A stretch of DNA of 64,000 nucleotides, taken from an uncultured Poribacteria bacterium (GTDB lineage Bacteria; Poribacteria; WGA-4E; WGA-3G). Shown in pieces: positions 31,644 through 49,381 of the stretch. The position numbers and the translations under genes are program-made. The stretch is from positions 3,962,506 through 4,026,505 of the forward strand of contig OX638316.1 in the NCBI GenBank assembly GCA_951812525.1, read 5' to 3'. The notes beneath the pieces were generated by a model, which saw only the letters and a program-made list of their open reading frames with translations, was not told the DNA's origin and ran no database searches. The first letter of the stretch is position 1; every line of letters begins with the position of its first letter.

Positions 31644-33792
31644 TTATCTTCAAAGTCTCTTAGCTGAGATAGAACTGTCGTCAAAATCTGTTGAGGTAGC
31701 AACAGGTCCACTCAAAGCAATCTTTGGAAAACACACAGATTATGTTTCGTCAATTACGTTCAGTCCAGATGGACAGATACTTGCCAGTGGGAGTTGGGAC
31801 GAGACGATCCGTTTGTGGGACCCACACTCAGGACAACTGAAAACAACACTTATAGGACATACATCTAACATCCACAGTGTTGCCTTTAGCCCGGATGGAC
31901 AGACGCTGGCAAGTGTGGGTAGAGACACAACAATACGATTATGGGATCCACGCACTGGAGAACTCAAAACGATGCCCACAGAAAACAAAGATTGGATCAC
32001 ATCTGTAGTGTTCAGCCCGGATGGACAAACACTTGCCAGTGGCGGTGCTGGCGGAAAGATTTTGTTGAGGAATACTAACACAGGACAACTGAAAGAAACG
32101 CTCACACAACACACTACTGTTATTGGGAAAGTTGTTGAGAGCGTAGCGTTCAGTCCAGATGGGCAAACACTTGCCAGCGGAAATCGGGACAAAATCATCC
32201 GATTATGGAATCCAAACAACGGAAAACTGAAAAGCACCCTTACGGAACATACGGATGCTGTTATGTCTATTGCCTTCAATCCGGATGGTAAAACGCTTGC
32301 CAGTGGGAGTCAGGATCGGACAATACGCTTGTGGAACCCACAAACTGGACAACTGAAAGAAACACTCACGGGTTATACAGATTGGATTAATCCTGTTGCG
32401 TTCAGTCCAGATGGACAGTATCTCGCTTGTGGAAGGTATAACACTATCCGCTTGTGGAACACGCAGACCGGTGAATACAAAAACATCTCTGAAGGGCATA
32501 CGGGGCATATTCTCTGTCTTGCTTTCAGCCCGGATGGAGAAACACTTGCCAGTGGAGGCGAGGATAATACAGTTCTGTTATGGGATTTCCAAACGCTACT
32601 TGAACAGATTCCCACCTTGGAAACGGGTCCAAACAAGATTACCGGACCTTGGCTGTGGATGATCGCTCCAACAAAAACGGGTCGAGGTGGTGCGAATTCC
32701 AATAATATCGATTCACTCGCTGTTACAACTAGTGGTGCTGTAACGGAGGCGGATATCGCGACAAACGGCACAGCCGAAGGTGATGCAGTTGGCAATTATG
32801 TATGGACCCTTGCTGAGATTGCTGAGACCGGTGGTGATAATGTCAATGAGCTGCTAAATAAAATCGATTTGGTCAGCGGCGATGTGGATGACCATTCGTC
32901 TTATGCCCTCATCACACTTGAATCCACCACGGCTCAGTCCGATGTGACAATGCGCGTTGGTAGCGACGATTCTATCAAGGTCTGGCTCAACGGTGAAGTG
33001 GTCCATAATAACCCGATCAATCGCGGCGCAAATGATTTTCAGGATATTTTTAAGGTTAACCTCGTTGCAGGTGATAATCTCCTGCTGGTAAAAGTCAGTG
33101 AGCGCGCTGGAGGTTGGAGTATGTTCGTCGGTATTGATGCCGACGTTAACGCTGTCTATAAACGTCCACCCGACCCAGTCGTGTCTGAAGATGTCAACGG
33201 CGATGGCATAGTAAACATCTTGGATTTGGTATCGGTCTCTTCAAACTTTGGAAAGACAGGAGAAAATATCGCTGATGTCAACGGCGATGGAATTGTCAAT
33301 ATCGTCGATCTCGTCAAAGTCGCTGGTGAGATGGGGGCTGGTGCAGCTGCGCCTGCAGCACACCCACAGACACTGGAGATACTCACCGCCGCAGATGTGC
33401 AGCACTGGCTCGCACAAGCACAACACGCAAACCTCACAGATGCAACTTCTCAACACGGCATCCTGATGCTTCAGCAGCTTCTCGCAGCACTCATCCCAAA
33501 AGAAACGTCGCTATTGCCAAACTATCCGAATCCGTTCAACCCTGAAACATGGATACCCTATCAGCTGGCAAAGTCTGCTGATGTTACGCTCAGTATCTAC
33601 GCAGTAGACGGCAGATTGATTCGGACATTGGCATTAGGGCATCAGCCTGCTGGAATGTATCATAGCAAAAGCCGATCAGTGTATTGGGATGGTAGAAATC
33701 AAGTAGGTGAACAGGTTGCGAGTGGCGTTTATTTTTATACGCTCACAGCAGGCGATTTCACCGTAACGCGAAAAATGTTGATTCGGAAGTAG
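31642..33792 (+). pseudogene. 5'-truncated WD40 / dockerin / sorting-domain protein
   Basis: The frame is open from inside the IS end and is homologous to the 3' half of the 35961 gene, beginning at the position equal to its VFLEYLLAEIALLSK segment. There is no start codon until ATG 31813, which is inside a propeller blade. Parts in order: seven or so WD40 blades (SPDGQTLASG...IRLWDP), a beta-sandwich with DDSIKVWLNGEVVHNN and GGWSMFVGIDADV, two dockerin-like units (DVNGDGIVNILDL and DVNGDGIVNIVDL), and a C-terminal sorting-type domain (LLPNYPNPFNPETWIPYQL ... SGVYFYTLTAGDFTVTRKM). The signal peptide, first propeller and protease are absent, so it is probably not exported. Confidence 0.85.
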
Positions 33793-35960: not shown

Positions 35961-38900
35961 ATGAAAAAGATACAATCTATTATTTTTACACTACTATGGG
36001 TTTCTATCTGCTTACTGCCCACACGAGTCGCAACCGCTCAACTCAAAGCGACACTCGAAGGACATACAGATAATGTCTGGAGCGTAGCATTTAGTCCAAA
36101 CGGTAATATGCTCGCGAGTGCGAGTTGGGACCAAACCGTCCGCCTCTGGAATGTTAACACTGGACGACTCCTGCACACCCTTACTGAACATACGAATGAA
36201 GTCCTGAGCGTAGCCTTCAGTCCAGATGGTAACACGCTTGCAAGTGCGAGTTGGGACGGAACAATCCACTTGTGGAATCCACGCAATGGAAACCTGAAAA
36301 GAACCCTCACTGGACACGCAGGAGGTGTCACATCCGTCGCCTTCAGTCCCGATGGACGGACACTCGCCAGTGGCAGTGCCGATCAGACAGTACGCTTGTG
36401 GAATCCAAACAATGGAAAACTCAAAACAACCCTTATCGGGCATACCAAAACAGTTGATGCTGTGGTGTTTTCTCCGGAGGGAGACATACTTGCCAGTGGG
36501 AGTCGAGACACAACGGTCCGCTTGTGGAATCCAGACGACGGAAAACACATTCAAACACTCAAAGGACATACAGATGAGGTCCTACGGATTGCGTTTTCCT
36601 CAGATGGAGACATACTTGCCAGTGGAAGTCGAGACACAACCATCCGTTTGTGGAATCCCAACACTGGACAACACATAAGCACTCTCGCTGGTCATACAGA
36701 TTGGGTAAATCCAGTAGCATTCAGTCCCGATGGTGCAACGCTTCTTATTGGAGGGCATGGGATTTCCATTTGGGATACACAGACGGGTCAAAACAAGAAG
36801 CCACTTTCTGGAGATATAAGAGGTGCGCTATCTGTCGTCTTCAGCCCAGATGGACAAATGGTTGCCAGTGGAAGTGCGGACAACAAGGTTCGGTTGTGGG
36901 AATTCACTGCTTCTGATTATGAGATTCCTTCAATCACTACAAATGGCATGATCCGATTAGTCTACTTCCTGCCTAACGATCGACCCAACCGACCAGAGAG
37001 AATACCAGCACTTCGGCAAATGATAAAAGATGTCCAGCACATTTTCGCTGACGAGATGGAACGCCACGGATATGGCAGAAAAACCTTTACGCTTGAAACC
37101 GATAAAGACGGTGAATCTGTAGTGCATCATATTGATGGAAAGTTCAAAGAGAATTATTATATTGAATCTCTCATGGATTTTAAAGTCTGGGAAGAACTTC
37201 TTGAACATTTTGATGACTTTCAGCATATTTATTTTGTTGTAGTAGATATAAGTGATGAAACCCATGGTGGCTCCGGTACCGTTAGTTTCTGGCCTACTGA
37301 TGGAAACATTAATCCTCCCTCAACAGGAAAAACTACACTCAGACATAGAAGCGAAACACAAGGGGAAGAAGTTCTTGGAGGTCTTGCCATAATTCCCGCG
37401 TCCGGTAGAGGTTTTGAAAGGCTTGGTCTGGCTCTCCACGAACTTGGACATGCGTTTGGCTTAGATCATGATTTTCGGCGGGCTCGTGACACCGACTATA
37501 TCATGGCTTACGGTAGCCAAAATCGATTGTCTAAGTGTTCTGCCGAGTGGTTATCTGTTAGCCGTTTCTTTAATACCAAGCCCATATCACCTAACACTCC
37601 AGCGGAAATACAACTTCTCTCCATGCAGGCTTATAGTGGCGACACAACAAGTTTCCGTTTTAAAGTAACAGATCCGGATGGACTTCATCAAGCGCAACTG
37701 TTAGTGCCAAGTATTACCCAAGACGGTGGCTGGGGACCCTACAGAATGTTCGATTGTAAACGCTTAAACGGCAAAACGAGCAGCGTTGAATCTGTTGTTA
37801 GAACAGCAGAACTCGCCGATAGAGTTACATTTCAAATTATTGATTTAACCGGTAACATCACCTGGGCAACACTTCCTATCGAGTTGGACACGGCACCGTT
37901 CGCCGAAAACCCCTTAGATATTAACAATGATGGCATTGTGGACATCTCGGATTTAACATCGGTTGCTTCACACTTTGGACAGCGTGGGAAAAATTTGGCG
38001 GATGTCAATGAAGATAAAGTTGTCAATACTGTCGATCTGCTCTTAGTCGCGGCAAGCCTGTCATCTATTCCTCAAAAGGCAGTTGAAACTATTTCTGCCG
38101 CAGATGTTCAGAAATGGCTAAACGATGCCAACCAACTTCGGGTTGAAAATGAGTATCAGCAAAAAGGAATCGTTTTTCTTGAATACCTCTTAGCAGAGAT
38201 AGCCCTACTGTCTAAACCTACACAGACAGTAACAGCTCCCCTTACAGCAATCTTTGATAAACACGCGGATTCAGTCAATTCCGTAGCGTTCAGTCCTGAT
38301 GGTCAAACCCTTGCCACTGCGAGTAGTGATAGAACCATTCGGTTGTGGGACACACGCTCCTCAGAACACAAAACGCTCCTTATAGGACATACAGATATTG
38401 TTAATAGGATCGCGTTCAGTCCCGATGGGCAGACGCTGGCGAGTGCGAGTCCAGATACAACCATACGATTATGGGATACACACACCGGTAAACACAAAAC
38501 ATCGCTCAGGGCACATTCGGGATTCGGATACATCGGTTTTTATTCCGTAGCGTTCAGTCCCGATGGCCAGACACTCGCCACTGGTGGTGATCACGCGAAT
38601 CCTGCCATTCGGTTGTGGAACTTACACAATGAAGAGAATATAAGAACCCTCAAAGGTCATACAGAACGAATCATGTCAGTAGCATTCAGTCCTGACGGCA
38701 GAATCCTTGCCAGTGGAAGCGCGGATAACACCGTCAAGTTGTGGAATCCAAACAACGGACAACTCAAAACAACCCTTACTGGACATACACGGGAGGTTGA
38801 GTCCGTTGCATTTAGCCCAGATGGACAGATACTTGCCAGTGGAAGTTGGGATCGTACAATTCGACTGTGGAATCCAGAAACTGGAAAACTCAAATCAACG

Positions 38901-40331
38901 CTCACAGGCTATACAGATTGGATTAATCCCTTAGCGTTCAGACCAGATGGAGAAATGCTTGCCAGTGGAAGTCAAAATCAGAGAATCCGCCTATGGGATG
39001 CACAGACCGGTGAATATAAAAACACCCTTCAGGAAGGTGCCGGTCATATTATATCTATTGTGTTCAGTCCAGATGGACAGCTGCTTGCGAGTGGCCGAGA
39101 GGATGGAACGGTGCGTCTATGGGAACTTCAGACGTTACTTGAGCAGGACTCTACCTTGACCTTGGGTACTAACAAAATTACCGGTCCGTGGCTCTGGATG
39201 ACCGCTCCAACAGAACCTGGTCGAGGTGGAGCAAATTCCAATAATGTCGATTCTCTTGCTGTTGCCAGTGGTGGTGGTATAACGGAGGCAGATGTCGCAA
39301 CAGACGGTGCCAGAGAAGGTGATGCAGTTGGCAATTATGCGTGGACGCTTGGAGAGATTGCTGAGACCGGTGGTGATAATGTCAATGTCCTGCTCAATCA
39401 CATAGGTATGGCACGAGGAGACGTGAACGACCATTCGTCTTACGCCCTCATCACACTCGAATCTGCCACAGCGCAGTCCGACGTGACCATGAGAGCTGGC
39501 AGCGACGACTCTATTAAAATCTGGCTCAATGGTGAAGTCGTCCATAACAACCCTATCAACCGAGGGGCAGCGGATTATCAGGATAAGTTCACAGTTGATT
39601 TGAAAGAAGGTGATAATCTCCTGCTGGTAAAAGTCAGTGAGCGCGCTGGAGGTTGGAGTATGTTCGTCGGTATTGATGCCGACGTTAACGCTGTCTATAA
39701 ACGTCCACCGGATCCAGTAGTGTCTGAAGATGTCAATAGCGACGGGATCGTGAACATCTTGGACTTGGTGTTCGTGTCATCGAATTTCGGAAAGACAGGA
39801 GAAAATATCGCGGATGTCAACGGCGATGGGATTGTTAATATCGTCGATCTCGTCAAAGTCGCTGGTGCGATGGGTGCGGGAGCGGCTGCGCCTTCAGCAT
39901 TGCCACAGACACTGGAGGGACTCACCGCAGCAGACGTGCGACACTGGCTCACACAAGCACAGCACTTCGGTCTAACCGATGCGACTTCTCAACGCGGTAT
40001 CCTGATGCTTCAGCAGCTTCTATCAGCTCTCGTTCCGAAAGAAACGTCTCTGCTACCGAATTATCCAAACCCATTCAACCCAGAGACGTGGATACCTTAT
40101 CAGCTGTCTGAACCCGCAGCGGTGACATTACACATCTATGCCGTAAACGGCAGATTGATTCGGACATTGGCGTTAGGGCATCAACCTGCGGGAATGTATC
40201 ACAGCAATAACCGTGCGGCGTATTGGGATGGGAGAAATGAAATTGGTGAATCCGTGGCGAGTGGTGTCTATTTCTACACGCTCATCGCAGACGACTTTAC
40301 TGCTACACGGAAGATGCTCATTTTGAAATAG
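35961..40331 (+). CDS. Large secreted protein: two WD40 propellers flanking a metzincin-like protease, dockerin pairs, sorting domain
   Basis: 1456 residues. Signal peptide 1-26. WD40 propeller 1 at ~30-325. A zinc protease domain at ~330-560 has HELGHAFGLDH from H493 (HExxHxxGxxH) and the Met-turn YIMAYG near 515. A beta domain follows, then dockerin-like units (652-702), propeller 2 (756-1067), a beta-sandwich with DDSIKIWLNGEVVHNN and GGWSMFVGIDADV (1069-1248), dockerin units (1255-1307), a short helical linker, and the C-terminal LLPNYPNPFNPETW sorting-type domain (1360-1456). AAGGAG precedes the ATG. Probably a surface or released protease complexed through propellers and Ca2+-binding dockerins. 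The 3' 1.9 kb closely matches 31642-33792, an example of recent duplication. Confidence 0.88.
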   Translation: MKKIQSIIFTLLWVSICLLPTRVATAQLKATLEGHTDNVWSVAFSPNGNMLASASWDQTVRLWNVNTGRLLHTLTEHTNEVLSVAFSPDGNTLASASWDGTIHLWNPRNGNLKRTLTGHAGGVTSVAFSPDGRTLASGSADQTVRLWNPNNGKLKTTLIGHTKTVDAVVFSPEGDILASGSRDTTVRLWNPDDGKHIQTLKGHTDEVLRIAFSSDGDILASGSRDTTIRLWNPNTGQHISTLAGHTDWVNPVAFSPDGATLLIGGHGISIWDTQTGQNKKPLSGDIRGALSVVFSPDGQMVASGSADNKVRLWEFTASDYEIPSITTNGMIRLVYFLPNDRPNRPERIPALRQMIKDVQHIFADEMERHGYGRKTFTLETDKDGESVVHHIDGKFKENYYIESLMDFKVWEELLEHFDDFQHIYFVVVDISDETHGGSGTVSFWPTDGNINPPSTGKTTLRHRSETQGEEVLGGLAIIPASGRGFERLGLALHELGHAFGLDHDFRRARDTDYIMAYGSQNRLSKCSAEWLSVSRFFNTKPISPNTPAEIQLLSMQAYSGDTTSFRFKVTDPDGLHQAQLLVPSITQDGGWGPYRMFDCKRLNGKTSSVESVVRTAELADRVTFQIIDLTGNITWATLPIELDTAPFAENPLDINNDGIVDISDLTSVASHFGQRGKNLADVNEDKVVNTVDLLLVAASLSSIPQKAVETISAADVQKWLNDANQLRVENEYQQKGIVFLEYLLAEIALLSKPTQTVTAPLTAIFDKHADSVNSVAFSPDGQTLATASSDRTIRLWDTRSSEHKTLLIGHTDIVNRIAFSPDGQTLASASPDTTIRLWDTHTGKHKTSLRAHSGFGYIGFYSVAFSPDGQTLATGGDHANPAIRLWNLHNEENIRTLKGHTERIMSVAFSPDGRILASGSADNTVKLWNPNNGQLKTTLTGHTREVESVAFSPDGQILASGSWDRTIRLWNPETGKLKSTLTGYTDWINPLAFRPDGEMLASGSQNQRIRLWDAQTGEYKNTLQEGAGHIISIVFSPDGQLLASGREDGTVRLWELQTLLEQDSTLTLGTNKITGPWLWMTAPTEPGRGGANSNNVDSLAVASGGGITEADVATDGAREGDAVGNYAWTLGEIAETGGDNVNVLLNHIGMARGDVNDHSSYALITLESATAQSDVTMRAGSDDSIKIWLNGEVVHNNPINRGAADYQDKFTVDLKEGDNLLLVKVSERAGGWSMFVGIDADVNAVYKRPPDPVVSEDVNSDGIVNILDLVFVSSNFGKTGENIADVNGDGIVNIVDLVKVAGAMGAGAAAPSALPQTLEGLTAADVRHWLTQAQHFGLTDATSQRGILMLQQLLSALVPKETSLLPNYPNPFNPETWIPYQLSEPAAVTLHIYAVNGRLIRTLALGHQPAGMYHSNNRAAYWDGRNEIGESVASGVYFYTLIADDFTATRKMLILK

Positions 40332-40392: not shown

Positions 40393-40482
40393 AGGACTTA
40401 CGCAAAATCAGAGAATTAAGTCTATCATGACGCAATCGGTGCGGTTAGGAAACCGCACCTACCGGGGAAGTGCGTAAGTCCT
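40393..40482. mobile_element. 90-bp MITE with AGGACTTACGCA ends
   Basis: Perfect 12-bp inverted ends (40393-40404, 40471-40482) and a central hairpin GGTGCGGTT/AACCGCACC (40438-40459). No coding capacity. The ribosome site of the next gene begins 4 bases after its right end. Similar AGGACTTACGC ends are known on transposons elsewhere (from memory). Confidence 0.85.
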
Positions 40483-40499
40483 ATCAAGGAGACGATTCT

Positions 40500-43283
40500 A
40501 TGCGATTTAAACACTTATTTCTTACGATAACTCTCTTGTCAAATCTTTTACTCACCGGTTTCGCACAAGAGCCAATACTACTCGAACATGGCAGTGGGGT
40601 GCGAGCCGTCGCATTTTCCCCTGTGAATGATAATCTTCTCGCAAGTGCTGGCGAAAACAACACAATCAAATTATGGAATTTGCGCAGGGGGACTGCCAGA
40701 ACGCTGAAGGGTCATACCGATGTCGTCAACTCTATCGCATTCTCTCCCAATGGAAGATTACTTGCGAGTGTGAGCCACGACAGAACTATCAAATTATGGA
40801 ATGTTCACAACCAACAAAACATAGCAACACTTCGAGAGGGAACATTGTTTGGCTCCGTTGCCTTTTCTCCAGATGGGAAGCTTCTTGCCACAGCAGGCTG
40901 GATGCATGTAAAACTATGGGACGTAGGGCGTCGGGTAGTGGTAGCAACCCTTCTGCACGACGAGCAGGTGCAAACAGTAGCCTTCTCAGCAGATGGAGAG
41001 TTTCTCGCTGTTGGAGATAGTTCAAGAGAGGGTTCTGGCACCGTGAAAGTCTGGAATATTCAAGAACAGCAGGTTATCGCTACACTGGAGGACGATCTGG
41101 TGTTTGTCCGGTCTGTCACATTTTCGTCAGACGACCGATACTTAGCAAGCTCCCATTACAATGGCGAAGTCAAGGTGTGGAATGTCGCCGATTGGGAACT
41201 TCTGCGCACAATTCCAAGGGCAGGGGACTATGATATTGCGTTCTCTCCCAATGGGAAAATGATCGCTGGCACAGGTAACGGGTCCGTAAATATCTGGTGG
41301 GCTGAAGACGGAACAAACGTTGCCCAACTGACAGGACCCGATGGTTGGCAGCATCCTGTTGATTTTTCGCATGATGGGACCTCCCTTGCTGTGGGTGCTG
41401 AAGACGGAATAGTCCGAATCTGGCGTATTGATACCTCTTTTGCAGACGCTAAAGGTGATACAGTTCAAATTTTACATATTGACACTTACTTCCAAGAGTT
41501 GCCGAGAGCACACTCCGTCAACGGAGATAATATTCCTGAACCTACTCCGCCACCGGCTGTTATTCGTGCCTTTTATGAACTTGATCCGTATTACGAGCAA
41601 TGGATTAATGTTCGAGGACTCCCCGTTATAGCGCCAGCGAAGGTGAATCCTTATGCGGTAAAAGAGGCTGCTTGGCTCATCGAAAAGATGATTGGACACC
41701 GCCCGGATGTGCTGCGCGCCATGGTCAGCAACAAAGCTCGCTTTTCTGTGGTGGCGCACACTGATATAATAACAGAAATCCCTGAGTATCGCGACGTGGG
41801 AACTCCTGATTTTCTTGCGTTTTGGGCACGGGGTGCGGGCGGGAGCGAAGGGGCAACAGTTTCTTCCTCTGAGGAGAACATTCTTGCTTTTCCCGGCGAA
41901 GTACCCCAAGAATACAATGTTCAGATCCATGAATTTGCCCATGGTATACATATCCTCGGATTGAACACCCTTGACCCGACGTTTGAGGAGCGACTCCAGA
42001 TGACGTACGAGGCAGCAATGAAAAAAGGTTTGTGGCAAGGCACCTATGCTTCCTCTGATATACGAGAATACTGGGCTGAAAGCACGCAAGCTTGGTTTCA
42101 CCATAATACTCCTGGCAGTTTCAAGAACCTCGACCCTATCCGTCACACGACGCGGCAGGCATTGAAGCTGTATGACCCGGAGCTGGCGGCATTACTCGCT
42201 GAAGTCTATGGGGATCGTCAATGGCGATACACTCCTCTCGAAACTCGAACCCATCTACCGCATCTTCAAGGATTCAATCCACAGGATTCTCCCATCTTTG
42301 AAGGCTGGTCTGAGTTGGAAGACACCTATCGACAATTGAAGAACCCAAACAGTGATGGCAACGGCGCGTGGGCAAATTTGAAATTGTTTGATCCAAACCA
42401 ACTTTCGCATCTTACAAAATCAAGTGTTCTGGGAGACCAAACGACGTTTGTTTGTGTGAACCTTTCCCAAGCGGATGTCTTACTATATAGGGTATATCCC
42501 GATGGCACAGAAGAATACTGGACCCGCGTTCCTCCCGATACTCTTAGAGTCTCAGGACGCGTCGGAATCAATGAGGTATGGCTCATCAAAGATGCCAATG
42601 ATAGAAATCTCGCTTTATTTCAAACTGTAGAGAAGGCAGGACGCGCATTCATTGGCTCGCCACCTCGGAAGACTGTTGAGGATGTCAACAGCGATGGTAT
42701 CGTGAACATCTTGGACTTGGTATCGGTATCTGCAAACTTCGGACAGACTGGAGAAAATATCGCCGATGTCAACGGCGATGGCATCGTCAATATCGTCGAT
42801 CTCGTCAAAGTCGCTGGTGAGATGGGGACTGGTGCAGCTGCGCCTGCATCACACCCACAGACACTGGAGATACTCACCGCCGCAGATGTGCAACAATGGC
42901 TCACACAGGCACAGCACGCAGATCTCACAGATGCTATTTCTCAACGCGGCATCCTGATGCTTCAGCAGCTTCTGGCATCTCTCATTCCGAAAGAAACATC
43001 GCTACTGCCAAACTATCCAAACCCATTCAACCCAGAAACATGGATCCCATATCAGTTGTCTGAACCCGCAGCGGTGACATTACACATCTATGCCGTAAAC
43101 GGCAGATTGATTCGGACCCTGATGCTCGGACATCAACCTGCGGGAATGTATCAGAGCAAAAATCGAGCGGTATATTGGGATGGTAGAAATCAGGTAGGTG
43201 AACAGGTTGCGAGTGGCGTTTATTTTTATACGCTAACAGCAGGTGATTTCACCGCAACGCGAAAAATGTTGATTCGGAAGTAG
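40500..43283 (+). CDS. Secreted WD40 protein with gluzincin-like protease, dockerin pair, sorting domain
   Basis: 927 residues. Signal peptide 1-22 (ending LTGFAQ). WD40 propeller ~23-320. A second region (~360-600) holds H477-E-F-A-H (IHEFAHGIH) and, 42 residues later, EYWAE (523-527): HExxH plus a downstream Glu, a gluzincin plan resembling M34/anthrax-lethal-factor-like proteases. Next a beta domain (about 645-715), two dockerin-like units (DVNSDGIVNILDL, DVNGDGIVNIVDL) and the NYPNPFNPETW sorting-type domain. The protease type differs from that of the 35961 neighbour although the end modules are almost the same. True start is ATG 40500 with AAGGAG; an in-frame GTG at 40470 lies inside the mobile element. 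Confidence 0.85.
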   Translation: MRFKHLFLTITLLSNLLLTGFAQEPILLEHGSGVRAVAFSPVNDNLLASAGENNTIKLWNLRRGTARTLKGHTDVVNSIAFSPNGRLLASVSHDRTIKLWNVHNQQNIATLREGTLFGSVAFSPDGKLLATAGWMHVKLWDVGRRVVVATLLHDEQVQTVAFSADGEFLAVGDSSREGSGTVKVWNIQEQQVIATLEDDLVFVRSVTFSSDDRYLASSHYNGEVKVWNVADWELLRTIPRAGDYDIAFSPNGKMIAGTGNGSVNIWWAEDGTNVAQLTGPDGWQHPVDFSHDGTSLAVGAEDGIVRIWRIDTSFADAKGDTVQILHIDTYFQELPRAHSVNGDNIPEPTPPPAVIRAFYELDPYYEQWINVRGLPVIAPAKVNPYAVKEAAWLIEKMIGHRPDVLRAMVSNKARFSVVAHTDIITEIPEYRDVGTPDFLAFWARGAGGSEGATVSSSEENILAFPGEVPQEYNVQIHEFAHGIHILGLNTLDPTFEERLQMTYEAAMKKGLWQGTYASSDIREYWAESTQAWFHHNTPGSFKNLDPIRHTTRQALKLYDPELAALLAEVYGDRQWRYTPLETRTHLPHLQGFNPQDSPIFEGWSELEDTYRQLKNPNSDGNGAWANLKLFDPNQLSHLTKSSVLGDQTTFVCVNLSQADVLLYRVYPDGTEEYWTRVPPDTLRVSGRVGINEVWLIKDANDRNLALFQTVEKAGRAFIGSPPRKTVEDVNSDGIVNILDLVSVSANFGQTGENIADVNGDGIVNIVDLVKVAGEMGTGAAAPASHPQTLEILTAADVQQWLTQAQHADLTDAISQRGILMLQQLLASLIPKETSLLPNYPNPFNPETWIPYQLSEPAAVTLHIYAVNGRLIRTLMLGHQPAGMYQSKNRAVYWDGRNQVGEQVASGVYFYTLTAGDFTATRKMLIRK

Positions 43284-43650: not shown

Positions 43651-44346
43651 TTATCGGATGTTTTTGATGCGTCCCCATGTGGTTGTGAGCTTGGCTTTAG
43701 GATCTACGGGAAAACTATCATCGCCGAAGAACTCAATTTCGCCAATTTGAAAATACGCCCCAGCCGGGTTCGATGCGGTGTCAAAAGTCACATGTCGAAA
43801 AAACCGATACCCAGTTTTTTGAACGTCGTAATCTTCCCCTGCCTCAAAAAGGACGACTTGCAGTCGCTGATCCCAAAAACTCTTCCCGTCGTGAGAAAAG
43901 ATGGTCGTAAAATCATCGCCGTCGTTCGACCCCTGAACCTCCCACACTGTAGGATCCCTAGGTGGAACATCGTTCGCTGAAGATACGGTGAAATGGGTCA
44001 ACGCGTACTGCTCCTCAAACTCAGCTGTCACGTGTAGACCTTCTTTCGGAATGCCGCCGCCACGTCCGCAGCACCATTTGTCATTGCTGGGACCAAGGCG
44101 GTTATCAAAGACATTATACGCAAATTCGCCGCCCGCGAATCCGGGTTCATCGTTGGCTGAGAAAATGGCGTTGTAACCGTCATCTGATTCAGGTTCACCA
44201 TCGTCTTCTGGGTCGGTTAGGTCTCCGCCTAGCAGTGATTCCGTTCCTGTTCCCAAGACCTCCTCCGCCTGTGCCATGTCGCTCGTGCTGATAACAAAAC
44301 AGGCTATCATTAACACAATTCCTACTAATACCAACATAATTTTCAT
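43651..44346 (-). CDS. Secreted discoidin-like (F5/8 type C) protein with LTTTWxxIK tail
   Basis: 231 residues. Signal peptide with hydrophobic stretch ending near DMAQAEE. The middle is a discoidin-like beta-sandwich: NVFDNRLGPSNDKWCC, VTAEFEEQYALTHFTVSSAND, PTVWEVQGSNDGDDFTTI, YRFFRHVTF and FQIGEIEFFGD. Such domains bind sugars or lipids. The last residues are KLTTTWGRIKNIR, a tail shared with the LamG protein at 48575, where it is RLTTTWANIKSQ; the tail follows a short linker and may be a sorting signal. ATG at 44346 chosen (AGGAG 10 bases upstream) over a TTG three codons earlier that overlaps the ribosome site. Confidence 0.83.
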   Translation of the reverse strand: MKIMLVLVGIVLMIACFVISTSDMAQAEEVLGTGTESLLGGDLTDPEDDGEPESDDGYNAIFSANDEPGFAGGEFAYNVFDNRLGPSNDKWCCGRGGGIPKEGLHVTAEFEEQYALTHFTVSSANDVPPRDPTVWEVQGSNDGDDFTTIFSHDGKSFWDQRLQVVLFEAGEDYDVQKTGYRFFRHVTFDTASNPAGAYFQIGEIEFFGDDSFPVDPKAKLTTTWGRIKNIR

Positions 44347-44502
44347 GCTGTTCAATCTCCTAAAAAAATGAATCTCACTTTTATGTGAGTTTCCATTTCT
44401 TCTATAACTTTAAAATAGACATATAGAATAACACATACACAACCGCGTTTTCAAGGAAATGAACAGAATCTTTCAAGGCATCGCACACCAAACCCCATTC
44501 AG

Positions 44503-46329
44503 TCACTTCCCGACTACATCCATATTGCCCAGCCACAACCCTTGCATCTCCTCACATGTTTCCAAAAGCACTTCTAACGTTCCTACGGCTTCTATTCTTC
44601 CGTCCTTGAGGACGACAATATTATCGGCGTGTCGTAAGGCAATAGGGCGATGTGACACGACAATGTACGTGCTTGTGGCTAAACTATTTGAATTCGTCTC
44701 CCGTCCTTCAAATACCCGACGCCATAACTTTTGCTCTGTTTCCACATCAAGAGCACTCGAAAGATCGTCAAACACCAATAATTCAGGCGCGCGCACCAAC
44801 ATGCGCGCCGCTGCTGTTCGCTGTCGTTGTCCACCGGAGAGTCTAACACCTCTCGGACCAATCACCGTATCCAGTCCACTTTCAAATGTTTTCAGATCGT
44901 CCTCCATCACTGCTGCCCGGATGGCTGCCTGAAGATCGACATCATCTTCCGGTAGCCCCATCAGGATATTCTCTCGAAGGGTATCGCTGAAAAGTCGTGG
45001 GACTTGCGGAGTGTATGCACAGCGTGGTGGTACGAGGAACGATGCAGCATCCACGATGGGTTTACCATTCCAGTAAATGTTTCCCGTGTCTCGAGGTAGG
45101 TGCCCCAATAGTACCTCCAAAAGCGTCGTTTTACCCGAACCGACGCGTCCGGTGATGACAGTAACTGTCCCGGCTGCTAGGCTGAGGTTGATATTTTCAA
45201 TCCCACGTCCCGTATCTGGGTGATGATAGGTTAACCCTTCGACTTCAAGACGACTTAGATGATGACTTCTGTTTTTGACGATGAAGGGAACGCTGGGAAA
45301 ATTACCGCGTAGGTATACCGGTCCAAGTCTGAGTAGTTTCCCTTGTGTATCATCGGCTGTCAGTTCAGAGAGTCGTTTCAGAGAAACATCAGCCTGCTTG
45401 AATGCTGCCAACAAACGTCCCAGCCAATTGGCAAACCCTAATACCGAAACCTGTCCGAGTGCGATGTAATTAACAAACAGTGCGAAATCACCTACGGTAA
45501 AAACACCGCCTCTCATCATCTCGCCAGCCAATATCAAAATCACACCCATCGCTAAGTTGATTGTTGTCGAATTCATCGAAGTTAGCAATTGGTTGAAAAG
45601 GTTCTCTTTGACCACAGCCTTGCGTCTTACCTCGCTGAGTTCATCAAAGTGATGAACAGCATTCGCCTCGGTGTTTGCCACCTTAATCGCCTGTGCTGCA
45701 CCGAAAAGTTCGCCGAGAAAGCCAGTGACACGACCTGTGGCTTCGCGGTTTATACGTCGATAAGTCTGAATGCGCTGACCCAACCCGTTTGTCAGGACTA
45801 CAATTGCTATCATCGGTAGAAAGGCGAAAAGTGTGATGAACGCATTGACACGCAATAGCACAACCAACGCAATAAGAGCAGATAGCGCGTGCCCACTCAA
45901 TTCAATAATTATTGTGATAGGAGCTACTGCACCTTGTGTATCATCATCAAAACGATTGATGATCTCGCCGGGATTTTCTACAGAATGAATCTCTGCGTCT
46001 TGCAAGAATGATTTGAATAAATTCCTGCGAATTAGTGTTTGAAGTTTACCTTCAAAATAGGCATAGGTTGCAGCGTAGCTCTGTTCAAATATTTGGATAG
46101 TCAGCCGCGTGCCCAAGAAGAGAATCACTAGGGTCCACAGATCGAAACCGACCGGTGTTTCACCCGTCAAGGCGTTAAAGAACTCGCGTATGATTAACCC
46201 AATCAGAAGTGGCAGACCATAATAAGCCAAGGAAAAAATGAAACTGAGACCATACAACATCGGGCTAAAATGTATCAGCCGCCAGAAATAGTGTCCTTTC
46301 TTTTCTGTGTTGAGCGGTAGTGTTTTCAC
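44503..46329 (-). CDS. ABC exporter half, heterodimer partner with degenerate Walker B
   Basis: 608 residues: six membrane helices (20-310) then an ATP-binding domain. Walker [10 protein letters not shown], signature LSGGQ, Walker B LLVFDD with Asp in place of the catalytic Glu, H-loop SHR. The GTG start overlaps the stop of the upstream partner gene by four bases (GTGA), so the two halves are made together. With the partner's weak signature (LSAGE), one composite ATP site is degenerate and the other canonical, as in known heterodimeric exporters such as TM287/288 and BmrCD. Substrate may be a lipid, peptide or drug. Confidence 0.92.
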
Positions 46330-48071
46330 GCCAGAAACTCCTCTAACCCCGTTCGCAAGAGACCGAAAAGAATGGAATTGGGATTCGCTGCCAAATTTTC
46401 ATATTCCCCATATTCTCTGATTCGCCCTTCTTCGAGAATCATAATTTCATCTGCCCGATGCACAGTCGAAAGCCGATGTGCAATTATAATCGCAGTCCGA
46501 TTTTGGAGAAGTGTATCTATTGCCCGTTCAAGGAGTCTTTCAGTGGCAGGATCCAGACGGGATGAGGCTTCGTCCAAGATTATCAATCCCGGATCCCTGA
46601 GGAAAACTCGCGTAAATGCTAACAGCTGCGCTTCACCAGCAGAAAGTCCACCGCCACCTGGAGGCAGTTCTGTATCAAGTCCGTCAGGTAGCGTATCGTA
46701 CCAACTACTCAATTCCAAGGCTCGGAGCCCCGCAAGGACTTGCTCATCCTCAATTGTTCGATCGAACAAGGTTAAGTTATCTCGAACAGATGCCTGAAAG
46801 AGTTGGACTTCTTGTGTGACGATGCCAATGTGCCGACGTAGGTCAGACAATTGTAGGTTCTTTATGTCTGTGTCGCCTAAGTAAATCGTGCCATGGCTGG
46901 TGTCGTAGAGACGAAATAAAAGGCGAGAAAGCGTGGTCTTCCCACTTCCCGTGCGTCCGAGCAGCCCTAACACTTTACCAGGGCTGAGATGAAATGACAG
47001 GTTCTTCAGAATGGGTTGTTCCGACTGGTAGGAAAAGGAAATGTCTTGACATTCAACTGACCATGCGCCAGGAGCCAGAATCGCTCCTGGACCATCTTGG
47101 ATTTTAGGTTCGGTTTGCAAAAGTTCCCGAACACGCCTTATGCTAACCTTAACCATTTGGAAGTCCTCTATCTGGCGTTGAATCCTGTTCAGGGGTGCAT
47201 GCAACATCTGGAGATAATGGAGAACGAGATAGACTGTCCCGATAGTAATAGCATCTGCTTGGAAAAGGTATGCGCTAAGCCCCATCACAGTCGCGAAACC
47301 GACAGCAAATACAATGTTCGATATAGTCCACCCGACATCGGTGATAACGTCGGCTTTGAACTTTGATAGGACTGCTCGTCTCATTACCTCATGAAAACGC
47401 AGCATCACATAAGCAATTGCGCCATTCGCCCGAATGTCTCGGAGTCCAGAAAGACGTTCCTCAAGAAAACTCGACAGATCAGCACTCGTCTGTCTCTCAA
47501 CGTCCCAGTAAGGCTCAGCGATGAGCTGTGAGCGAATATGAACCATCAAATAGACCGTTACAAGGACTCCGAGGATCGCACTCAGTCGCCAGTCTTCGTA
47601 AAAGAGGACAATCAATGTGCCGACTGACAACAGAATGCCGCCCAATATCTCCATCACAAATTGCGAGAAAAAATTGGCAAGCCTATCCACATCGCCATCA
47701 ACGCGTTCAATCAATTCGCCGGGTGTGTGGGTGCTATGGAAGGAAATATCCAATCCCAAGATATGAAGGGTCAAATCTGCCCGTAGACGGTTGGTTGTCC
47801 GCCAACTCACATCACTGCTGACATATACCGAAAAGGCAGATACAGCCTGATGAATCAATCCCACACCAATGAAAAGCAGCCCGGCTTGAATCAACTTCTG
47901 TAGTGCCTCGGTGGATCTCGCAGTATCAATGAAATGACGCACAATTAATGGGTTGATGAGTTGTAGACCGATACTGCTAAACAGGAGCAGCGTCATCAGC
48001 AAAACCCTTGGCAACTGTGGCTTGAGGTAGTCAATAAGTAAGCCCCAATATTGACTGTGTGGTATTTTCAT
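46326..48071 (-). CDS. ABC exporter half with canonical Walker B
   Basis: 581 residues. Six membrane helices, then Walker [10 protein letters not shown], altered signature LSAGE (usual LSGGQ), Walker B LIILDE with the catalytic Glu, and H-loop AHR. First gene of the pair: no clear ribosome site before the ATG. Its Walker B together with the partner's LSGGQ makes the active ATP site; its LSAGE pairs with the partner's Asp in the degenerate site. This matching pattern of defects, one in each gene, supports an obligate heterodimer. The 130-bp MITE copy 2 lies 57 bases upstream and may affect transcription. Confidence 0.92.
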
Positions 48072-48127
48072 ATACTATAGTTTTCTAATAAAACAGTAAC
48101 CTGTCCTGAAAAATAAATTACTTTCAA

Positions 48128-48256
48128 TTATGGTAAAACCTACAAATAAATGGACATCTTTGTAGCATAAACTGTTAGTTTGTGCCATTGTGAATGCTCA
48201 TTAGCGGCATTCACACTGTTTAAGGGTGTCCAATTAATTCTAATATCTACCATAAA
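48128..48256. repeat. 130-bp MITE-like element, copy 2
   Basis: Inverted ends TTATGGTA/TACCATAA; internal pair GTGAATGC/GCATTCAC is perfect here, and TGGACA/TGTCCA is kept. Same layout as 19691-19820. The following 48257-48463 shows nothing. Confidence 0.85.
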
Positions 48257-48463
48257 TCAACCGAAATTTGGAAGACTAGACTCAAAAATATACACAAGTT
48301 TCGTATATAGAGCATGATATTATTATTTATAACCTTAATTTTGGTGTTTAATTCGGCTAAATATGTAATGTCCTTCTTCACGCCGAAAAAAGGGTAATCT
48401 ATGTTACGCCTCTTCGGGGAAGGTTATCAGCTCTTTAAGCGTATGGACCCCAGAAAAATATAC

Positions 48464-48492
48464 TTGACGATGCGCGATGCTTATGCTAAATT
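48464..48492 (+). promoter_or_regulatory. Candidate promoter of the LamG gene
   Basis: TTGACG, 17 bases, TAAATT; good -35 and spacing, weaker -10. About 80 bases before the ATG at 48575. Confidence 0.4.
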
Positions 48493-48574
48493 AGTTATGT
48501 CTGTTCAGTACAGGCACTAACGGAAAAATGTGTTCAGCTAATTCACACAAATCCTACACAGGAGACTTGTAAAG

Positions 48575-49381
48575 ATGATAAAGAATTGGAAAATGCTACT
48601 CGTACTAACAGTGCTGGGGGCTGTGTTAATCCCGCTCCACAGTTATGCTGTGGTTGACAGCGCGACGGCTATCGGTGTTTGGCTTTTCGACGACGGCGAT
48701 GTTAGCGATTCCAGTGGCAACGGAAATGACGGTGAACTGATAAACGGCGCAGAAGTCACCGATGGCGGTAAATGGGGAATGGCACTCAGCCTCGATGGTG
48801 ACGATGACTATGCCAATGTGGGCAGTTCTGACACCTTAGATAGCACCGCTGAAGAATTCACCGGTGTCGCATGGGTGAAACTCGAAAGAAAAGGCGACCC
48901 ACACGGTGCGTGCTGTGCCGACGACCACATGGTTATTGCCTTTACGACACAATGGAATAATATTTTGAACGTCTTTGGCCCCGGTAGAGGTGGGAATCAA
49001 GGGAAAGTCGAAGTGGGTAGCCGTGAGCTTAATCCGCGTTGGCTCTTTGGACCTACGGCTGTCAATGATGACCAGTGGCATCATCTTGCCTTCACCTACG
49101 ATGGTGCAAAGAAAGTCCTCTACATTGACGGTGAAGTTGACATTGATCAGGATACCACCGGTGCCTTCGGTGTGGTAGGTGTTGATGTTCATTTAGGTGG
49201 AACGCCAACTGAGAGACAGGCACAGGGATTGATGGACGAGATGGCGATTTTCAATGTCCCGCTTGAACAAGCCGATATCCAAAACATAATGAATGATGGT
49301 CTCGGTTCTGTGCTTGGTTTAACACCTGTCAGCCCACTTGACCGTCTAACAACGACGTGGGCTAACATTAAGTCCCAATAA
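48575..49381 (+). CDS. Secreted LamG/concanavalin-A-like protein with LTTTWxxIK tail
   Basis: 268 residues. Signal peptide 1-25 (ending HSYAV). A LamG-like fold follows: GVWLFDDGDVSDSSGNGNDG, ALSLDGDDDYANV, FTGVAWVKLE, a DDQWHHLAFTYDG block, VLYIDGE, VHLGGTPTER and LMDEMAIFNVPLEQADIQNI. These domains commonly bind carbohydrates. The tail is DRLTTTWANIKSQ, matching the discoidin protein at 43651. AGGAGA precedes the ATG. Likely a surface or secreted sugar-binding protein; the shared tail suggests a common export or anchoring path. Confidence 0.85.
   Translation: MIKNWKMLLVLTVLGAVLIPLHSYAVVDSATAIGVWLFDDGDVSDSSGNGNDGELINGAEVTDGGKWGMALSLDGDDDYANVGSSDTLDSTAEEFTGVAWVKLERKGDPHGACCADDHMVIAFTTQWNNILNVFGPGRGGNQGKVEVGSRELNPRWLFGPTAVNDDQWHHLAFTYDGAKKVLYIDGEVDIDQDTTGAFGVVGVDVHLGGTPTERQAQGLMDEMAIFNVPLEQADIQNIMNDGLGSVLGLTPVSPLDRLTTTWANIKSQ

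Follow-up and report, generated by a model that had tools for sequence, protein, structure and literature searches.

The C-terminal tail shared by two proteins in this stretch of Poribacteria DNA, 64,000 nucleotides long and here called the window, is carried by more than 100 unrelated exported proteins of this genome, by all 85 Poribacteria genomes searched and by a few viruses, and because of this distribution it is, judging from sequence, very probably a label that addresses proteins to the cell envelope or surface. We estimate a probability of about 0.85 that it acts as a sorting or localisation tag recognised in trans. No model of the tag was seen in Pfam or NCBIfam when tagged proteins were scanned, and a solved-structure relative was rejected since the best matches were partial, with E values of 0.2 or worse. 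Our literature search, which reached few subscription papers, returned no description of the motif, nor any of LamG proteins or C-terminal sorting signals in Poribacteria. With no library model, solved structure or paper found, we regard the tail as previously unrecorded.

The tail and the two window proteins that carry it

The two proteins, one discoidin-like and one LamG (Table 1), end in ...FPVDPKAKLTTTWGRIKNIR and ...TPVSPLDRLTTTWANIKSQ, respectively. The initial annotation had noticed a common LTTTW-containing end on these two genes and had called the proteins otherwise unrelated; we verified both tails in the sequence, and outside them the proteins belong to different Pfam families, with a strong Laminin_G_3 match for one and a weak F5_F8_type_C match (5.7e-5, under the curated cut-off) for the other. 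The only significant similarity between them is the tail itself (10/17 identical, E 4e-4), which rules out plain homology. The common segment is longer than LTTTW, starting about 8 residues earlier at P-V-x-P. Homologues of the discoidin-like protein in a named Poribacteria MAG (84-86% identical) are also tagged; the most probable start of its gene is the ATG at 44346, not the TTG at 44355.

Table 1. Locations of the tagged proteins, their tags and related features (window positions, or locus and position)
Feature	Location	Strand	Basis
F5/8 type C (discoidin)-like tagged exported protein, 231 aa with signal peptide	43651-44346	-	ORF
Tag of discoidin-like protein, PVDPKAKLTTTWGRIKNIR	43654-43710	-	hmmsearch E 3e-6 on called genes
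ABC exporter gene pair between the two tagged genes	44503-48071	-	
LamG (Laminin_G_3) tagged exported protein, 268 aa with signal peptide	48575-49381	+	Pfam 1.8e-19
Tag of LamG protein, PVSPLDRLTTTWANIKSQ	49325-49378	+	Pattern and tail HMM
T9SS type A sorting domain ending WD40 protein 35961-40331 (contrast)	40059-40331	+	TIGR04183 32.7 bits, cut-off 23
T9SS type A sorting domain ending WD40 protein 40470-43283 (contrast)	43011-43283	+	TIGR04183 32.5 bits
Third T9SS type A-like sorting domain in the window	33520-33792		
LamG gene broken by in-frame TGA, downstream part retaining the terminal tag	L053:1986-2168	-	
PorU-like C25 peptidase, 1701 aa	L312:7066-12171	+	
PorU-like C25 peptidase, 2131 aa	L319:4109-10504	+	
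Viral tagged LamG protein	L336:12770-13696	+	
Viral tagged LamG protein	L339:5498-6421	+	
Viral tagged LamG protein	L341:9983-10906	+	
Viral tagged LamG protein	L338:6457-6501	-	
Putative esterase on a 40 kb contig classed as viral; signal peptide, tag-like end VGARGKLPTTWGEMKRQ	L344:1422-2513	-	

The consensus of both tails is V-x-[P/A]-x-[G/D]-K-L-[T/A]-T-T-W-[G/A]-x-[L/I]-K, with 1-13 further residues behind it. Numbered from the motif leucine (L0), the conserved positions in LamG tails are V-6, P/A-4, K-1, L0, T2, T3, W4, G/A5, L/I7 and K8, while -3, 6 and everything from 9 onwards are free; unbiased conservation is greatest at V-6, K-1, L0, T2, W4, G/A5 and K8. The lysine at -1 is present in about 90% of tags and that at +8 in nearly all. 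The number of residues beyond K8 varies from tag to tag, so the determinant is not the free carboxyl terminus. A divergent family (f7) tolerates changes at L0 and T2-T3 and keeps the V-x-P, the K and the W-[GA]-x-[LI]-K frame. Third codon positions within the motif vary freely, which indicates that the protein sequence is conserved and rules out a DNA-level repeat or mobile element.

AlphaFold2 modelled the LamG protein of the window, together with 46 relatives, as a confident ConA-like lectin fold (mean pLDDT 82) whose best solved match is domain 4 of the arabinanase AbnA. In this model the tail is a detached helix after a linker (residues 258-267), at the low confidence of pLDDT ~54, and the periodicity of conservation in the tag is ambiguous as to a helix. 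A detached terminal helix would suit a peptide that takes up its fold on binding a partner, and is not proof of one. The model of the discoidin-like protein, built from three sequences, was uninformative (pLDDT 34).

Abundance, cargo and spread of the tag

We searched the 5.06 Mb genome for L[AT]T[TSR]WxxhK with a degenerate pattern written in codons (YTNRCNACNWSNTGGNNNNNNNTNAAR), using the reversed pattern as a control, and obtained 67 matches versus 0, a difference that excludes chance. All 67 are in frame at the ends of ORFs, with the motif leucine 10-21 residues before the stop codon. For an unbiased sample, 711 genes were called in 857 kb of the genome by a simple codon-usage caller and searched with the tail HMM; 30 of the 711 were tagged, all at the C terminus with 1-5 residues between the tag and the stop. 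E values were below 1 for 26 of them and 1.5-4.3 for the other four. The remaining hits in this sample were weaker and not C-terminal, and the best E value among reversed proteins was 2.3. Extrapolated from the sample, the genome holds ~180 tagged genes, roughly 4% of the total.

A census independent of the motif was taken from the Pfam LamG places in the genome, reading the C terminus wherever possible. Among 97 such places, 91 had a readable end and 88 of these were tagged (37 strict, 49 looser, and two displaced or behind an in-frame stop). One of the untagged ORFs has a T9SS type A domain in that place, and the remaining two, both long proteins, show neither ending.

The initial annotation proposed testing whether the tag recurs on other secreted proteins and is enriched among those bearing signal peptides, and many other secreted proteins do carry it: by a simple rule based on hydrophobicity rather than a trained predictor, 28 of the 30 tagged proteins in the sample have a signal peptide, against 147 counted as soluble and exported among all 711 genes (Fisher p 2e-18). 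Inspected by eye, the other two also look exported. Lipobox-like sequences occur in just 2/30, and no hydrophobic 19-mer follows residue 35 in any of the 30. Tagged proteins are small (median ~260 aa) and include LamG, F5/8C, 3-keto-disaccharide hydrolase, PD40/TolB-like propeller, Kelch propeller and lamin tail families as well as some proteins without any family match; LamG is the largest class, at 23 of the 57 tagged proteins scanned. The tail is nearly identical across proteins that are 23-34% identical overall, and the proposed conservation of a short C-terminal tag over different secreted folds is upheld. The tail shows the generic hallmark of a C-terminal sorting tag, a short conserved end on many unrelated exported proteins that other proteins lack.

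A profile built from 48 tails (threshold E<=1e-4) matched 85/85 Poribacteria genomes, with at least 6278 matches and 6 to >100 copies per genome, the number scored being capped near 102 in each. The strict pattern gave 3495 matches in these genomes versus 3 when reversed; the apparent absence of the tag from two of them (G009 and G011) was an artefact of that pattern, the profile finding 6 and 16 copies in a variant form. When genome contigs were scanned with the pattern, Candidatus Poribacteria accounted for 110 of 113 stretches among the matches listed, the other 3 being one contig each from MAGs that bear the labels Pseudomonadota, Planctomycetota and Deltaproteobacteria. The Planctomycetota contig is probably contamination, because its tagged protein shares 77% identity with one from Poribacteria. 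Besides this MAG, two of 246 Planctomycetota genomes gave a single pattern match, one of them containing a stop codon, and the profile matched 0/58 Planctomycetota genomes, this probably contaminated MAG set aside. The Pseudomonadota MAG (RHO2_bin_21, G085, 1.9 Mb) has tags on L138, L217, L232 and L238 and may carry a wrong label, be contaminated or represent a second lineage that uses the tag. On the 3.8 kb contig of the Deltaproteobacteria-labelled MAG (L186), which is probably a misplaced Poribacteria contig, a short frame has the end SVHPRGKLATTWGEIKGSR.

In IMG/VR the strict pattern found four contigs, one of them through a chance 29-residue frame. A LamG protein whose end reads VEPKLKLTTTWGEVKK, IKSKLKLTTTWGEVKK or IEPKNKLVTTWGEMKKWK is encoded on the other three and on a related contig of 67 kb; one contig shows only its last 35 residues. 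These proteins are predicted envelope proteins, N-terminally anchored or secreted. Where replication genes are present on the contigs, they include a T4-like polymerase, UvsX and a DnaB-like helicase, and the polymerase is ~50% identical to cyanophage enzymes. The viral LamG proteins are merely 63-73% identical and yet retain the tag, which argues that it is kept by selection in the virus. The tagged T4-like viruses are candidates for infecting Poribacteria or another tag-using host.

Relation to T9SS domains and other C-terminal signals

The NYPNPFNPETW domain that ends the WD40 proteins of the window scores above the curated TIGR04183 cut-off and is a T9SS type A sorting domain; both large WD40 proteins also bear dockerin-like DVNxDGxVNxxDL repeats. 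The type A domain occurs in the same genome and window as the tag and resembles it in being C-terminal, on exported proteins and present in tens of copies per genome. It differs in being a folded domain of ~90 residues on large proteins (median ~900 aa), unrelated in sequence or profile and not found alongside the tag. In the sample, 11 genes have the NPFNP domain, in each case precisely 87 residues from the C terminus, and 0/11 are tagged; conversely, none of the tagged proteins scanned matched TIGR04183. With hhalign, the tag showed no profile similarity to the local T9SS domains (probability 0.3%). The tag is therefore distinct from that domain, as originally proposed, and this comparison rules out a T9SS domain remnant.

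PEP-CTERM, MYXO-CTERM and GlyGly-CTERM signals have a transmembrane helix with a basic tail, and an enzyme embedded in the membrane cleaves them (exosortase, myxosortase and rhombosortase, respectively). Like the tag, they are short C-terminal homology regions on unrelated exported proteins, but the tag lacks a membrane helix, and exosortase is missing in 82/85 genomes. These classes were found by the same reasoning as the tag (PMC1569441, PMC3237569, PMC11980579), and MYXO-CTERM is described as tripartite (PMC11980579). The LPXTG/sortase signal is likewise C-terminal, with a threonine in the motif and a basic tail; in contrast to it, the tag has no hydrophobic stretch, and sortase (PF04203) was found in 0/85 Poribacteria genomes. 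Encapsulin and microcompartment cargo peptides are short docking peptides behind a flexible linker, portable between cargo proteins. Their cargo is cytosolic, whereas the tagged proteins have signal peptides.

Exosortase (PF09721) was detected in three Poribacteria genomes, G017 (L334), G015 (L335) and G003, and not in this one. PorU-like C25 peptidases are present in 84/85, usually in 2-3 copies, and two in this genome match models of the T9SS sortase PorU just under the curated cut-off. No recurrent family neighbours the tagged genes, the largest cluster being 9/168, which means that a reader, if there is one, acts in trans. A co-occurring processing enzyme had been suggested at the outset; among neighbours, sortases and exosortases we found none that was dedicated or co-localised. 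Of the initial description of the tail as a sorting, anchoring or processing signal, sorting or anchoring is for this reason the better supported part by sequence, and processing the less supported.

Proposed mechanism, alternatives and significance

Our best explanation as a whole is a portable C-terminal sorting tag docked on a common envelope receptor, a picture to which we give even odds. Tagged proteins would be exported by Sec through their N-terminal signal peptides. Once the cargo has folded, a flexible linker would expose the 16-19 residue tail V-x-P-x-x-K-L-[TA]-T-T-W-[GA]-x-[LI]-K, and a shared receptor in the envelope, its gene lying elsewhere in the genome, would bind it as a short helix, presumably without cleavage. 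The receptor would fix the protein at, or route it to, a single site, most probably the outer envelope or the cell surface, and the tag might then be the small-protein counterpart of the T9SS C-terminal domain on large surface proteins of the same cells. We prefer docking because the tail is short and free of membrane segments, does not depend on the carboxyl end and has no dedicated protease that we could find. Taken by itself, non-covalent docking falls just short of an even chance: the conserved T-T and its two flanking lysines could equally form a cleavage or modification site, and with as many as three PorU-like C25 peptidases in a genome there is room for a role in processing.

Those peptidases are also the starting point of an unlikely alternative, that the tag is a second type of T9SS signal, a minimal tail that sends small proteins across the outer membrane to be cleaved or attached by a PorU-like C25 enzyme. 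The near-universal C25 family with its two PorU-model matches here, the coexistence of type A domains that were not seen on one protein with the tag, and the conserved lysines on either side of the LTTTWGxL core would all suit it. It sits badly with the 0.3% hhalign probability, with a length below 20 residues where known folded T9SS signals have ~70-100, and with a C25 copy number that stays nearly constant while tag number runs from 6 to >100. In another alternative, a lysine-specific protease or transpeptidase would cut at K-L...L-K and the product would be attached or released. The two frequent lysines and the variable stretch beyond K8 could be read so, but with sortase absent, exosortase rare, no membrane helix and no linked protease family, we think this improbable.

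Somewhat less doubtful, though still not favoured over a T9SS signal, is self-association, in which bundling of the tails would bring small lectin-like domains together as multivalent assemblies on the surface, without a separate receptor. L0, W4 and L/I7 are hydrophobic, the cargo consists mostly of small and often glycan-binding-like beta domains, and each genome has many paralogues; against this, T-T, K-1, K8 and V-x-P are conserved beyond the needs of a simple amphipathic bundle, and the tail is far below coiled-coil length. That paralogous LamG proteins simply retain a common end without function is very improbable. LamG is the biggest cargo class, both in genome matches and among the tagged proteins scanned, but ordinary inheritance is contradicted by the several unrelated cargo folds, by near-identical tails on otherwise divergent proteins, and by the viral and divergent-family members that keep the tail.

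For the sorting tag read in trans, we tentatively propose, at a little under even odds, that a dedicated and undescribed Poribacteria pathway reads this tag without a membrane helix on ~4% of genes, and that T4-like viruses of these uncultured bacteria borrow the tag to put a lectin-like protein into the envelope of their host. The tag poses the question of which receptor reads it. As a nearly phylum-specific marker, it can spot Poribacteria contigs in mixed assemblies and propose hosts for viral contigs. It predicts a localisation class for about one in five soluble exported proteins throughout this phylum of largely sponge-associated bacteria; most of that cargo consists of glycan-binding-like domains, which may touch the host matrix.
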